Below, one piece after another: positions 17,264 through 22,782 of a DNA stretch of 64,000 bases (positions within the stretch are counted from its first letter, which is position 1; the number at the start of each line of letters is the position of its first letter). The stretch lies in assembly GCA_026002855.1 (NCBI GenBank), contig BPGD01000001.1, positions 62,001 to 126,000 of the forward strand, read 5' to 3'. The stretch is from Bryobacteraceae bacterium (GTDB lineage Bacteria > Acidobacteriota > Terriglobia > Bryobacterales > Bryobacteraceae). Both the position numbers and the translations under genes were made by a program. The notes beneath the pieces were generated by a model. That model searched no databases and was not told where the DNA came from. It saw only the letters and a program-made list of their open reading frames with translations.

Positions 17264-18187
17264 GTGTTGCCGTACAAACTCGTCTATCACGAGCGCTACG
17301 ACCTGAACTTCGGCTCGCACATCTTTCCGGCCGTCAAGTACCGCCTCATCCGGGACCGCCTTCTCGGCGAGGGGCTGGCAGAGGAAGCTGACTTCATCAG
17401 GCCGGAGCCGATCTCGCGCGAGCAGCTTCTGCTGGTGCACACGGAGGAGTGGATCAACAAGCTCGAACGCGGCACGCTGAGCTATCACGAGGTGCTGAAG
17501 CTGGAAGCGCCCTATTCCCGCCGGATGGCGGAAGCAGCGTTTCTGGCTGCCGGAGGAACGCTGCTGGCCGCGCGGCGCGCACTCGCCGATGGGGCCGGCT
17601 TCAATATAGGCGGCGGCTTTCATCATGCCTTCCCGGACCACGGAGAAGGTTTCTGCGCGATTCATGATGTCGCCGTGGCCATTCGCGCGCTTCAGCGCGA
17701 GGGCGTCGTCCGCAAGGCGCTGGTCGCCGACTGCGACGTCCACCACGGCAACGGAACGGCCGCCATTTTTGGCGGCGACCGCAGCGTGTTCACGCTCTCC
17801 ATCCACCACTTCAACAACTATCCGGCGGTGAAGCCGCCCTCGACGATCGACATCCACCTGGAGGACGGAGTCGGCGATGAAGAGTATCTCGCACGCCTGC
17901 GGCCCGCCTATGAAGCGGCCGTGCTCGGCTTCCGCCCGGAGATCGTGTTCTACGTCGCCGGCGTGGATCCGTATGAAGACGACCAGCTCGGCGGGCTTAC
18001 GCTCACGCGGGAAGGGCTCTACGAGCGCGACCGGCTCATCTTTGACATTGCGCTGCGCAAGCACGTTCCCGTCGTGGTGACCCTGGCGGGCGGCTATGCC
18101 CGCAAGACGGAGGACACCGTTGCGCTGCACGTGCAGACGGCAGTAGCACTGAGAGACAGCATGAAGGAGTGGGCCCGGCGATGGTAG
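17264..18187 (+). CDS. Histone deacetylase family protein (class IV-like)
   Basis: 307 residues, GTG start ten bases after the pta stop. The deacetylase core is intact: GGGFHHAFPDHGEGFC (general-base histidine pair), LVADCDVHHGNGTAAIF (zinc-binding Asp and His), SIHH, YVAGVDPYEDDQLGG (third zinc ligand), and LAGGYA with the transition-state tyrosine. Bacterial members remove acyl groups from protein lysines or from small acylated amines; acetoin-utilisation AcuC is a relative. Location right behind pta suggests a link to acetyl phosphate or acetyl-CoA balance, perhaps reversing chemical acetylation, but that is inference. Its end overlaps the sulfatase start by seven bases. Confidence 0.9.
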   Translation: MLPYKLVYHERYDLNFGSHIFPAVKYRLIRDRLLGEGLAEEADFIRPEPISREQLLLVHTEEWINKLERGTLSYHEVLKLEAPYSRRMAEAAFLAAGGTLLAARRALADGAGFNIGGGFHHAFPDHGEGFCAIHDVAVAIRALQREGVVRKALVADCDVHHGNGTAAIFGGDRSVFTLSIHHFNNYPAVKPPSTIDIHLEDGVGDEEYLARLRPAYEAAVLGFRPEIVFYVAGVDPYEDDQLGGLTLTREGLYERDRLIFDIALRKHVPVVVTLAGGYARKTEDTVALHVQTAVALRDSMKEWARRW

Positions 18188-19551
18188 ACCGCAGGACGTT
18201 TCTGGCTTCCACGGCCGCTGCGCTGACGCCGGCAGCGAGCACCGCCCAGCCGGCGCCGCGGCCGAACATCATCCTGATCCTTGCCGACGATCTCGGCTAC
18301 GGCGACCTGGGCTGCTACGGGCAGACCCGCATCCAGACCCCCAACCTGGACCGCATGGCGGCCGAAGGCATCCGCTTTACCTCCGCCTATGCGGGCTCCA
18401 CCGTGTGCGCGCCTTCGCGCTGTTCGCTGATGACGGGCCTGCACACCGGCCATGCGCGGACGCGCGGCAACCGGTCGCCGGACCTGCCGCTGCGGCCGGA
18501 AGACGTCACCGTGACGGAGGTCCTGAAGCAGGCCGGCTACCGGACGGCGCTGTTCGGCAAGTGGAGCCTCGGCGAGCTCGGATCCAGCGGGTACCCGACG
18601 CGCAAGGGCTTCGACGAATGGTTCGGTTTTTTTTCGCAGCTTCACGCCCACAACTACTACCCCGAACACGTGCTGGACGGCGAAACCGCCTGGCTCTGCC
18701 GCGGCAATATGGGCATGCAACGGCGCGATTATGCGCCGGACCTGTTCACCGAACGGGCGCTGCGGTTTTTGGAAAAACAAAACCGTGCAACTCCGTTTTT
18801 TCTGCATCTGTGCTACACCGCGCCCCACGCCAACAATGAAATGGGCCGCGACACGGGCGACGGCATGGAGGTCCCATCCTACGGGCCATACGCGAACCGT
18901 CCCTGGCCGCAGCCGGAGAAGGGCTTTGCGGCGATGATCACCAGGATGGACGCGGACATCGGCCGGATCCTCGCTGCTCTCAAAAGCAGGGGGCTGGACG
19001 AAAACACGCTGGTGATCTTCACTTCGGACAACGGCCCGCACCGTGAAGGAGGCCACGACCCGAGATTTTTCGAGTCCAGCGGCCCGCTGCGCGGCATCAA
19101 GCGCGATCTTTACGAGGGCGGCATCCGCGTGCCGATGATCGCGCGCTGGCCTGCGCGGATCCGCGGGGGGCAGACGAGCGATTTTCCGTGGGCCTTCTGG
19201 GACGTGCTGCCTACGCTTGCCGAGCTGGCCGGCGCCAAGATGCCGCCGGGACTGGACGGCATCTCGGTGGCAGCCGCGCTCACTGGTCAGGCGCAAAAAT
19301 CACACGAACATTTCTATTGGGAATTTCACGAGGGCGGGTTTTCGCAGGCCGTGCGGATGGGCCCGTGGAAGGGCGTGCGGAAAGGAGTCGAGGGCCCCAT
19401 CGAGCTTTACAACCTGGAAGAGGATCTGGGCGAGCGGCGGGATCTTGCCAGTGACCGGCCCGAGATCGTCCGCGAAGTGGCGCGGCTGATGCGCGAGTCC
19501 CGCACCGAAAGCGAATTCTGGCCGGTGAAGCGCGCGGCCACGGGCGCGTGA
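18181..19551 (+). CDS. Sulfatase (arylsulfatase family), Tat-exported
   Basis: 456 residues. DRRTFLASTAAALTPAAS at the N-terminus is a Tat-like signal. The type I sulfatase motif CAPSR lies in STVCAPSRCSLMTGLHTG (about residues 76-93). Its first cysteine would be oxidised to formylglycine by a maturase that is not in this window. Metal ligands are in ILADDLGYGDLG and FTSDNGPH, and LFGKWSLGELG is the usual second signature (with S for H). It hydrolyses sulfate esters, probably on environmental glycans. The start overlaps the end of the deacetylase gene, so the three genes from 16258 are likely one operon. Confidence 0.93.
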   Translation: MVDRRTFLASTAAALTPAASTAQPAPRPNIILILADDLGYGDLGCYGQTRIQTPNLDRMAAEGIRFTSAYAGSTVCAPSRCSLMTGLHTGHARTRGNRSPDLPLRPEDVTVTEVLKQAGYRTALFGKWSLGELGSSGYPTRKGFDEWFGFFSQLHAHNYYPEHVLDGETAWLCRGNMGMQRRDYAPDLFTERALRFLEKQNRATPFFLHLCYTAPHANNEMGRDTGDGMEVPSYGPYANRPWPQPEKGFAAMITRMDADIGRILAALKSRGLDENTLVIFTSDNGPHREGGHDPRFFESSGPLRGIKRDLYEGGIRVPMIARWPARIRGGQTSDFPWAFWDVLPTLAELAGAKMPPGLDGISVAAALTGQAQKSHEHFYWEFHEGGFSQAVRMGPWKGVRKGVEGPIELYNLEEDLGERRDLASDRPEIVREVARLMRESRTESEFWPVKRAATGA

Positions 19552-19568: not shown

Positions 19569-20012
19569 TCAGGAAACCGAACGGACGGCGGCCAGAATGG
19601 TGTCGATGGGGGGATCTCCGCGCCAGGCGGCGCCGATGCGCCCCTCCGGCGTGACGACGTAGACGGTGCGCCGCACGATTCGCCAGCAGCCGGCCCGCCA
19701 GACGCGCGCGATGCGGCCGCCCTCGTCCACAAGCAGCGGGAACGGCAGCGCCAGCCGCGCGGCAAAACGCGCGTGACTTTCGGCCGATGCAGGATTGACG
19801 CCGTAGACCACGGCGTTGACGGCCTCGAATTCCGGAAACCGATCCGCAATCCGGCCGAGCTGCTCCGTTCAGCCCGGGGAGTTGTCCGCCGGGTAAAACA
19901 CGATGACGACCGGCTGCCCTCGCTGCTCGCGAAGGCGCACCGTGTAACCCTGATGGTCGCGGGCCTCGAAATCGGGCGCCGGCGCGCCGGCGGGCAGCGT
20001 GGGGCCGAACAT
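19569..20012 (-). CDS. Peroxiredoxin with in-frame TGA at the peroxidatic site (candidate selenoprotein)
   Basis: Read through one TGA (19871-19869), this is a complete 147-residue AhpC/TSA or BCP-type peroxiredoxin starting at the ATG at 20012. The text before the stop ends PVVIVFYPADNSPG; the text after resumes TEQLGRIADRF. The family motif is P-x3-T/S-x2-C, so residue 48, coded by TGA, is exactly the peroxidatic cysteine. The catalytic arginine is in RRTVYVVTPEG, and there is one later Cys in WRAGCW. The frame is uninterrupted for 47 codons before and 99 sense codons after the TGA. A hairpin suitable as a bacterial SECIS begins ten bases after it. The gene starts eight bases after the argR stop, so it ends the arginine operon. 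Alternatives are a recent nonsense mutation or a sequencing error; conservation around the site argues against decay. Confidence 0.8.
19824..19859 (-). promoter_or_regulatory. Candidate SECIS hairpin
   Basis: Starting ten bases after the in-frame TGA, CTCG pairs with CGAG and, inside, CCGGA pairs with TCCGG around a 13-base loop that contains G residues. An alternative fold pairs CCGgAT with ATCGG around a TGCGG loop. Both place a G-bearing apical loop about 20-32 bases from the TGA, as expected for SelB recognition in bacteria. Confidence 0.55.
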
Positions 20013-20020
20013 GGCAGCGC

Positions 20021-20455
20021 CTACTGATTGACGTACGACAGCAGCCGCTCGTGCACGGTCTTGGCGCGCTGGTTGTCCCAACAGGCGACAAAGACGGTGT
20101 CATCGCCGGCGACCGTACCGGCGATCTCGGGCCAGTCTTCCTGGTCGAGCGCAACCGCAAGAGAATTGGCGCTGCCGGTGGAGGTCTTGAGGATCACCAG
20201 GTGCTGAGCCAGCCTGACGTCGAGCAGATACTCGGCCATCACCTGAGCGAGACTGGGCCCGGTCGGGTCCGGCAGAATCTCCCGGTAACCGTCGGCGGTC
20301 TTGACGATCCCCATTTCGCGCAGGTCGCGCGAAAGGGTGACCTGGGTGACTTCAATGCCAAGCGCGCGCAGCTCCTGCGCGAGCTCTTCCTGCGTGTTGA
20401 TCCTTTTTGAACGGATCAGTTTCAGGATCTGCCCCTGGCGGTAATTCTTCGTCAT
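20021..20455 (-). CDS. argR: Arginine repressor ArgR
   Basis: 144 residues, normal length. The N-terminal winged helix has INTQEELAQELRALGIEVTQ followed by TLSRDLREMGIVK, the recognition helix. The C-terminal arginine-binding and hexamerisation domain has TGSANSLAVALDQ and GTVAGDDTVFVACWD. It binds L-arginine and ARG boxes. One such box lies upstream of argF, the first gene of this operon, so autoregulation is likely. Its ATG overlaps the argH stop (ATGA). Confidence 0.96.
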   Translation of the reverse strand: MTKNYRQGQILKLIRSKRINTQEELAQELRALGIEVTQVTLSRDLREMGIVKTADGYREILPDPTGPSLAQVMAEYLLDVRLAQHLVILKTSTGSANSLAVALDQEDWPEIAGTVAGDDTVFVACWDNQRAKTVHERLLSYVNQ

Positions 20456-21825
20456 GAGAGTGACTCCAGGCGCCGCCGGGCCTCTTCGAGCGCGGCGGAG
20501 ACGGTCTCCGGCGCCGCGCCCCCGGGCACGGCGCGCGTTTTCAATCCTTCCTCGGGTTCCAGCAGCCGCGCCATGTCCGGCGTGAAACGCGGATCGAAGG
20601 CGTGCAGCTCCTCGCCTGTCCAGTGCTGGGGCTGCCGGCCCTGGCGGAGGCTTTCGAGCACCAGCCGGCCGACCAACCGGTGGGCGTCGTGAAAGGGAAC
20701 GCCCGAGCGGGCGAGCGCCTCAGCCAGGTCCGTGGCCACCAGCCAGCCTTCTGCGGCCGCACGGCGCGCCGCCTCCGGCCGCAGGCGCGCCGTCTCCACG
20801 ACGGCCCGGGCCATTTCGAGTGACGCGGCCGTCTGGTCGGCGGCCTCGAAAAGCGGCTCCTTGTCCTCCTGCATGTCGCGATTATAGGTGAGCGGCAGGC
20901 CTTTCATCGTCATGAATAATGACGTAAAACAGCCGAAAACCCGTCCGCATTTTCCGCGGATCAGTTCCAGAGAATCCGGGTTCTTTTTCTGCGGCATGAG
21001 CGAGGATCCGCTGGTGACGCCGTCGGACAGCTCGAGCCAGCCGAACTCGTCGGACGAATACAGGATCCAGTCCTCGGCCAGCCGCGACAGGTGCATCATC
21101 AGCAGCGAGGCGGCCGACAGGAAATCGAGCGCCCAGTCGCGGTCGGCGGAGACGTCCATGGAGTTTGCGGTGATGCCGTCAAAGCCGAGCTCGCGCGCCA
21201 GCGCCTCGCGGTCGATGGGGAAGCCGGCGCCGGCCAGCGCTCCCGAGCCGAGCGGCATGCGGTTGACGCGCTGCCGCGTCTGCGCCAGCCGTTCGTGGTC
21301 GCGCCAGAACATCTCAAAGTAGGCCAGAAGATAATGCGCCCAGGTCACCGGCTGCGCGCGGCGCAGGTGCGTGTAGCCGGGGATCACCGTCGAAACATGC
21401 GCGTCGGCCTGCCCGAGCAGCGCTCCCATCAGGCCCCGCAGCAGGCCGGCGATGCGGTCGATTTCGCCGCGGAGCCAGAGGCGCGTGTCAAGCGAGACCT
21501 GCTCGTTGCGCGAGCGCCCGGTGTGGAGCTTCGAGGCGAGCCCGCCCGCCAGCTCTCCCAGCATGCGGATGACGTAGGTGTGGACGTCTTCATCGGGCGC
21601 ATCCGGCGGAGGCGGCGGGACCCGGTCCAGCGCTGCGCAGATGGTTTCCGCCTCCGGTCCGGTAAGAATGCCGGCGCGGGCCAGCGCGCGCGCCCATGCC
21701 TTCGAGCCCGCAATGTCGGCTTCGAACAGCCGGCGGTCGAAGTGCAGCGACCAGGAAAACCGCTGGAACGTCTCCGAGGGTCCTTCCTGAAATCTGCCGC
21801 CCCAGAGTTTCAATGGCGCCTCCAT
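20452..21825 (-). CDS. argH: Argininosuccinate lyase
   Basis: 457 residues. It cleaves argininosuccinate to arginine and fumarate, the last step of arginine synthesis. Visible are WGGRFQEG at the N-terminus, HTGRSRNEQVSLDTRLW (about residues 103-119), the TVIPGYTHLRRAQPV segment with the catalytic histidine, and the fumarase/lyase signature GSSLMPQKKNPD (about residues 277-288). It starts three bases after the argF stop and overlaps argR, so the order argF-argH-argR is tightly coupled. Confidence 0.97.
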   Translation of the reverse strand: MEAPLKLWGGRFQEGPSETFQRFSWSLHFDRRLFEADIAGSKAWARALARAGILTGPEAETICAALDRVPPPPPDAPDEDVHTYVIRMLGELAGGLASKLHTGRSRNEQVSLDTRLWLRGEIDRIAGLLRGLMGALLGQADAHVSTVIPGYTHLRRAQPVTWAHYLLAYFEMFWRDHERLAQTRQRVNRMPLGSGALAGAGFPIDREALARELGFDGITANSMDVSADRDWALDFLSAASLLMMHLSRLAEDWILYSSDEFGWLELSDGVTSGSSLMPQKKNPDSLELIRGKCGRVFGCFTSLFMTMKGLPLTYNRDMQEDKEPLFEAADQTAASLEMARAVVETARLRPEAARRAAAEGWLVATDLAEALARSGVPFHDAHRLVGRLVLESLRQGRQPQHWTGEELHAFDPRFTPDMARLLEPEEGLKTRAVPGGAAPETVSAALEEARRRLESLS

Positions 21826-21828
21826 CTT

Positions 21829-22782
21829 TTAGTGTGCCGGACCGTCCAGCAGCATGAGCAACAGCGCCTTCTGCGCGTGCAGGCGGTTTTCGGCCTGTTC
21901 AAAGACCAGCGAGACCGGAGATTCGATCACCTCCGTCGTCACCTCCTCCTCGCGGTGGGCCGGCAGGCAGTGCATGAAAAAGGCGCCGGGCAGCGCCCTG
22001 GCCATCAGTTCGCGGTTCACCTGATAGGCGGCGAACACGCGGGCCCGCTCGGCCGCCTCGTGCTCGAAGCCCATCGAGGCCCAGACGTCGGTGTACACGG
22101 CGCCCGCCCCGCGCAGGCCTTCGTCCAGGTCGTTGGTGACCTCGATGAGAGCTCCCGTCTCCACGGCGAACTCGCGCGCTTTCGCCACAATTTCGGGGCG
22201 CGGTTCGTAGCCGGGAGGCGTGATGCAGGCAAAATCGAGACCCAGCCGCGCCGCATCCAGCATCAGCGAATGGGCCACGTTGTTGCCATCGCCGACGAAG
22301 GCCAGCTTGTGTCCCCGCCATTCGCCCCACTGCTCGCGCAGCGTCTGCATGTCGGCCAGCGCCTGACAGGGGTGATAGAGGTCGCTCAGGGCATTCACCA
22401 CCGGGATCTTCGCAAAGCGCGCCAGCGCGTCCACCGTCTCCTGCGAAAAGGTGCGCGCCACGATCAGGTCCGTCCATCGCTCCAGATTGCGCGCGACATC
22501 TTCCACTGGCTCTCTCCCGCCGACCGGCCCCGTGTTTAAAATTGCATCGCCGCCCAGCTGCTTTGCCGCCACCTCAAATGTCATCCGCGTGCGCAGCGAA
22601 GGTTTTTCAAACAGCAGACTCAAGATCCGGCCCCGCAACGCGAGACGGTAGCGCTCCGGGTGGCGCTTCACGCGCCCCGCCAGATCCAGCAACTGGCGCA
22701 ACTCTTCTGCGGTGATGTCGAGGTCCGACGTCAGGTCCCCCGCCCGCACGCGGGGGAAAGTCGAGGGAGGCGGCTCCGTCAT
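21829..22782 (-). CDS. argF: Ornithine carbamoyltransferase
   Basis: 317 residues. It joins carbamoyl phosphate and ornithine to form citrulline. The carbamoyl-phosphate loop reads FEKPSLRTRMTFEVA (about residues 54-68), a variant of the usual STRT. The ornithine site has HCLPAHREEEVT (about residues 268-279) and DLYHPCQALADMQT in the middle. I favour ornithine over acetylornithine as substrate because of HCLPAHR, though this cannot be settled by eye. First gene of the operon, with an ARG box about 30 bases upstream of its ATG. Confidence 0.94.
   Translation of the reverse strand: MTEPPPSTFPRVRAGDLTSDLDITAEELRQLLDLAGRVKRHPERYRLALRGRILSLLFEKPSLRTRMTFEVAAKQLGGDAILNTGPVGGREPVEDVARNLERWTDLIVARTFSQETVDALARFAKIPVVNALSDLYHPCQALADMQTLREQWGEWRGHKLAFVGDGNNVAHSLMLDAARLGLDFACITPPGYEPRPEIVAKAREFAVETGALIEVTNDLDEGLRGAGAVYTDVWASMGFEHEAAERARVFAAYQVNRELMARALPGAFFMHCLPAHREEEVTTEVIESPVSLVFEQAENRLHAQKALLLMLLDGPAH

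Follow-up and report, generated by a model that had tools for sequence, protein, structure and literature searches.

A very probable selenocysteine peroxiredoxin encoded behind argF-argH-argR in a Bryobacteraceae bacterium

PrxU of Eubacterium acidaminophilum is, by the title of a paper, reportedly a selenocysteine (Sec) peroxiredoxin, and a paper of 2001 is said to deal with a Sec peroxiredoxin; the NCBIfam model NF040737 (peroxi_PrxU) presumably represents the PrxU of this organism. Sec peroxiredoxins of COG1225 (Bcp) with the motif TxxU are described from 43 Sargasso Sea sequences (PMC1088965, 2005) and as 12 selenoproteins (PMC1794560, 2006), the latter source counting five Cys-to-Sec events for the family, and they are also tabulated in PMC9312934 and PMC13188914. 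The initial annotation of the present locus had noted that Sec peroxiredoxins of this type occur in other phyla. The PrxQ/BCP subgroup motif is given in PMC5302317 as (D/A)xTxGC, with Gly preceding the peroxidatic residue, and that of AhpE as PxAF(T/S)xxC. A literature search on selenoproteins of Acidobacteriota returned little; the deep-Sep paper names one acidobacterium with three known selenoprotein genes (PMC12013277). Searching by title and the start of the abstract, nothing was found on Bryobacterales Sec peroxiredoxins or their arg operon, which does not prove that such work is absent.

In the window, i.e., the whole stretch of 64,000 nucleotides analysed, which belongs to a genome consisting of a single contig of 4,437,915 bases, the following features were assigned.

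20012-19569, minus strand: predicted gene of a Sec-containing peroxiredoxin (AhpC/TSA, PrxQ/BCP-like; prx), 147 residues including Sec48; from frame, Pfam, homologues and fold
19871-19869, minus strand: TGA, very probably selenocysteine 48, at the peroxidatic position; homologous codon TGA, TGC or TGT in 67 and 80 loci
19878..19892, minus strand: Pro41-Ser45 of the P-x3-T/S-x2-C/U active-site motif; from the frame and a 29-sequence alignment
19668..19670, minus strand: Arg115, probable active-site arginine; at least 90% in 29 aligned sequences
19854..19856, minus strand: Gly53, at the +5 place of the PrxQ resolving cysteine; from the locus readings at +5
19857-19820, minus strand: probable bacterial SECIS hairpin in the mRNA, loop 19842-19837; from folding, synonymous recodings and codon freezing
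20021..20455, minus strand: argR, arginine repressor (PF02863, PF01316)
20452..21825, minus strand: argH, argininosuccinate lyase (PF00206, PF14698)
21829..22782, minus strand: argF-type carbamoyltransferase (PF00185, PF02729)

The prx frame starts with ATG, ends with a terminal TGA at 19571-19569 and contains a single internal TGA, codon 48, in the context Y-P41-A-D-N-S45-P-G-TGA-T-E-Q-L. GC content by codon position is similar before and after this TGA. The initial annotation was correct in describing a frame that is otherwise intact on both sides of one TGA, in placing this TGA at the peroxidatic cysteine of a P-x3-S-x2-C motif and in stating that the catalytic arginine is kept, which was confirmed by the conservation of Arg115 in the alignment. 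It had also expected conventional gene finding to split the frame in two or to call a pseudogene; without recoding, the only part of this frame among open reading frames of at least 80 aa is an 80 aa fragment with a GTG start (19569-19811). Eight bases separate the argR stop from the prx ATG in the order argF-argH-argR-prx, and prx is probably transcribed together with these three genes. No plasmid match was found at E ≤ 1e-20. Elsewhere in the window, a gene with a histone-deacetylase domain (17264-18187, plus strand) overlaps with its end the start of a sulfatase gene (18169-19551).

Analysis of the window protein against Pfam AhpC-TSA (PF00578) gave 110.8 bits, passing the gathering score of 26. 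The NCBIfam PrxQ equivalogs NF053650 (73.8 bits, cut-off 260) and NF006960 (63.9 bits, cut-off 140) were both missed, as was PrxU NF040737 (38.9 bits, curated cut-off 270); because these scores lie well under the curated cut-offs, the protein is termed PrxQ-like and not a PrxQ or PrxU equivalog. The fold was predicted with a mean pLDDT of 94.5, and its best PDB matches were PrxQ/BCP and AhpE peroxiredoxins, the same groups being nearest by sequence. Among 29 aligned sequences, the window protein included, Pro41 is invariant and Arg115 nearly so (≥90%). Compared with the subgroup motif (D/A)xTxGC, the window sequence D-N-S-P-G-U keeps the Gly, with Ser replacing Thr and Sec replacing Cys; most relatives read have Thr, not Ser, at the position of Ser45.

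Codon 48 was read in relatives from a search of 151 genomes, at least 120 of which gave matches at E ≤ 1e-15. The 67 loci read, including the window gene, comprised the 30 best matches, 17 picked for an internal stop and 20 picked without one; codon 48 was TGA in 21, TGC or TGT in 46 and any other codon in none. TGA was present in 8 of the 30 best, unselected matches, and none of the 21 TGA loci contains a further in-frame stop ahead of the C-terminus. A second scan covered the best 80 of 499 relatives in named genomes and gave 9 TGA and 71 TGC or TGT codons; 31 of the 80 duplicate genes already read in the first set (5 of these with TGA). The nine TGA loci belong to metagenome-assembled genomes titled Bryobacteraceae, Bryobacterales, Candidatus Solibacter or Acidobacteria, which would put the window in Acidobacteriota, close to Bryobacteraceae. 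The alignment proposed in the initial annotation thus revealed a Cys or Sec codon at position 48 in every locus of both sets, and since other genomes also have TGA here (20 more of the 67 loci; 9 of the 80), a sequencing error is very unlikely. TAG or TAA occurs in some relatives' matches, never at codon 48; where these could be placed, they are terminal stops. Ten loci picked for their stops (L059-L068), from other families of the class, carry TGA at the same codon and lie in a separate part of the tree.

A tree of 116 different proteins (25 Sec, 91 Cys) implies at least seven Sec/Cys changes, of which only one is forced by well-supported branches. Comparison of the window gene with its sister from the same genus gave a dN/dS of 0.07 before the TGA and 0.15 after it, showing purifying selection on both sides. 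Decay in related strains, against which the initial annotation had cautioned, was not seen: the sister genome has the same TGA and no other stop before the end of the gene.

The Sec-decoding genes named in the initial annotation are all present in the window genome: selA (494.6 bits, cut-off 267.9), selB (356.1 bits, cut-off 242.25), selD (356 bits, cut-off 125) and tRNA-Sec (72.8 bits, gathering score 47; ARAGORN assignment SeC, anticodon tca). The selD gene (L011:1501-2406; G000:C1:2807112-2808017) has an in-frame TGA of its own, in the context AAG-U-ASK, and is a second selenoprotein candidate. Among the genomes searched, selB scored above its cut-off in 130 of 151, and in 19 of the 21 with a TGA-containing prx. 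The two TGA-prx genomes in which selB was not found at E ≤ 1e-70, G007 and G123, were among 15 genomes checked for selA and tRNA-Sec, 12 of them TGA-prx genomes; both genes were present in all 15. In G007 the selA match starts at a contig edge and G123 is 88% complete, so the missing selB is likely due to gaps in the assemblies.

Folding of the mRNA downstream of the TGA yielded a minimum-energy stem at 19857-19820 of -20.4 kcal/mol; its loop comprises six bases and begins at a distance of 26 bases from the TGA. It is near to, but not identical with, the hairpin at 19824-19859 of the initial annotation; a hairpin is present and has been kept in the sister gene, but its energy does not separate Sec from Cys homologues. 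Compared with dinucleotide shuffles its energy is ordinary (37 of 200 as good), and compared with synonymous recodings it is rare (0.4% of 1000 as good). The rule for bacterial SECIS elements in PMC13188914 gives a 3-9 nt loop whose first two positions include G, a stem of 4-16 bp, a distance of 16-37 nt from UGA and an MFE of at most -7.5. Distance and energy of the window hairpin lie within this rule. The minimum-energy loop UCGGUU has its first G in third place, and a G within the first two places is found only in the alternative window pairing with loop GGAUCG (less stable, -14.2) or in the sister-gene loop CGGU.

No difference in hairpin energy separated the 21 Sec from the 46 Cys homologues (p = 0.44; z-score, p = 0.17). 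Under a slightly looser rule, a G-looped hairpin reaching -7.5 kcal/mol was present in 40 of 46 Cys controls versus 20 of 21 Sec genes, with no difference in energy (p = 0.51) and a weak one in z-score (p = 0.02). Four of the ten arg-linked Sec genes (the window gene, L090, L091 and L094) fell below 5% of the synonymous null and six did not; a consensus fold over the ten hairpins gave no structure, and those of three smaller subsets were weak (-6.3 to -8.7).

Over the 16 codons that follow the TGA, 13 of 13 same-residue codons are identical in window and sister gene, versus 55 of 106 elsewhere (p = 4e-4). This difference of 0.48 compares with a mean of 0.065 (sd 0.17, maximum 0.5) in 418 Cys pairs. 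Among 14 Sec pairs of at least 65% identity, which share members, 10 point in the same direction and 4 in the opposite one, with 4 of the 14 at p < 0.05. Because the first 26 codons of prx are nearly as frozen as those after the TGA, codon freezing supports a SECIS element without proving it; it is better evidence for the element than hairpin energy.

The position five residues after the catalytic one (+5) is usually Cys in the PrxQ relatives read and Gly53 in the window protein. Among the arg-linked genes, Cys is present at +5 in L094, L108 and L113. Gly or Ser takes its place in the window gene and in seven of the nine named TGA loci. When cysteines were counted with start codons chosen by rule, five (L090, L091, L093, L098, L099) of the eight proteins formed by the window protein and seven named Sec proteins had none, Sec standing alone. 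Cysteine is entirely absent from the sister protein, which has Phe at the place of Cys109, the one cysteine of the window protein. Plain counts associate Sec with loss of the +5 Cys, which is kept in 9 of 21 Sec versus 44 of 46 Cys loci (Fisher p = 3e-6) and missing in 16 of 25 Sec versus 2 of 91 Cys proteins among the 116, partly picked, rows; these loci are, however, related to one another, and some had been chosen because of their stops. Tested on the tree, the association was not significant, supported branches giving one independent pair and all branches together seven.

In the catalytic cycle that these residues suggest, the selenolate of Sec48 would attack the peroxide to give a selenenic acid. 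Because Gly53 occupies the place of the resolving cysteine and the sister protein is free of cysteine, the oxidised Sec would be reduced directly by an outside thiol, either thioredoxin or a small thiol, in a one-Sec cycle analogous to the mechanism of one-Cys peroxiredoxins. We consider this cycle rather likely, its one basis being the absent cysteines, and the window protein itself has Cys109.

Neighbourhoods were retrieved with approximately 3 kb on each side of the 80 named loci. Both argR and argH lie near prx in ten of the 80, namely in every one of the nine TGA loci and in L113, which has Cys; L092 and L096 have further DNA between argR and prx. A 49-row tree grouped L113 and eight named Sec genes with the window gene (93/82) and placed L108 elsewhere, the +5 column being included in the trees. 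L113 looks as if Sec had reverted to Cys. A single clade of all arg-linked copies including L108 was neither shown nor clearly rejected (p-AU 0.062). In the L113 genome (G009, 84% complete), the selB frame is interrupted towards its C-terminus by an in-frame TAG (L170, G009:C361:7000-9900); this is no more than a hint, and either a decaying Sec-decoding system or a faulty assembly could account for it. Three of the five genus genomes searched (G002, G003, G004) have no peroxiredoxin behind argR; these genus-mates have argH-argR and the end of argF (L175, L176, L177), followed by other sequence after argR, and G002 and G004 carry a more distant peroxiredoxin match elsewhere in the genome.

With a frame broken only by TGA, sel genes and tRNA-Sec in the genome, the exchange of Sec and Cys among homologues and a dN/dS of 0.15, there is little doubt, on sequence grounds, that prx encodes a genuine selenoprotein, with selenocysteine inserted at UGA codon 48 (probability approximately 0.94). 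SelB and tRNA-Sec would decode this codon, helped by the hairpin just downstream. Any lone in-frame TGA also permits reading the gene as a formerly Cys-coding one struck by a nonsense mutation, or as a sequencing error, and the three genus genomes without such a gene behind argR would fit this. The same codon is, however, TGA in other genomes and never another stop, dN/dS remains 0.15 after the TGA and no further stop precedes the C-terminus; given the Sec/Cys alignment and dN/dS, we reject both a pseudogene and a sequencing error as extremely improbable. In bacteria, Sec insertion competes with termination, so UGA 48 might act as a stop or switch, with a 47-residue peptide as the main product and accidental or occasional read-through. 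This is very improbable, since purifying selection acts on the 99 residues after the TGA, which include a large part of the fold as well as the conserved arginine.

Given the selenoprotein reading, the protein might not act mainly as a peroxidase but have a redox-sensing or regulatory role connected with arginine synthesis. The location of all nine TGA loci of the 80 named relatives within approximately 3 kb of argR and argH and the loss of the resolving cysteine in most of them speak for such a role; the peroxidase active-site residues are kept, though, and neighbourhood alone is a weak guide to function, which makes it unlikely. For the selenoprotein as a peroxidase, we tentatively suggest a distinct Bryobacterales lineage of Sec-only peroxiredoxins fixed behind argF-argH-argR, in which, after a change from Cys to Sec, the resolving cysteine and then all cysteines were lost; turnover would involve a single selenium atom together with an external reductant, and arginine synthesis might in this way be coupled to peroxide or selenium status.

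Recognition of this gene corrects one that standard annotation would break up or label as a pseudogene, and Acidobacteriota gain a lineage of Sec peroxiredoxins. Relatives form a natural series (Sec with the resolving Cys, Sec without it, Cys with it, no gene behind argR) that lets one ask what Sec benefits a peroxiredoxin and whether the resolving cysteine becomes dispensable; the Sec-only variant in this lineage is the part worth testing.

Compared with described systems, PrxQ/BCP structures (PDB 5enu; Xanthomonas PrxQ, 5iiz) have a fold and active site like those of the window protein, but with Cys instead of Sec and approximately 30% identity; 5enu likewise lacks a Cys at +5 in its alignment. 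AhpE of Mycobacterium tuberculosis (1xxu, 4x0x), by entry title a 1-Cys peroxiredoxin, shares the fold with a TM-score of up to 0.93 and differs by its Cys and an identity of 26-28%. PrxU of Eubacterium acidaminophilum is, reportedly, a Sec peroxiredoxin like the window protein, which reaches only 38.9 of the 270 bits set for the PrxU model. The COG1225 Sec family has the same domain, peroxidatic Sec and P-x3-T/S-x2-U arrangement, whereas the window protein has SxxU instead of TxxU, Gly at the place of the resolving cysteine and a location behind an acidobacterial argR. Sec peroxiredoxins as a kind are already known; less ordinary here are the linkage to arg genes and the relatives without any cysteine.
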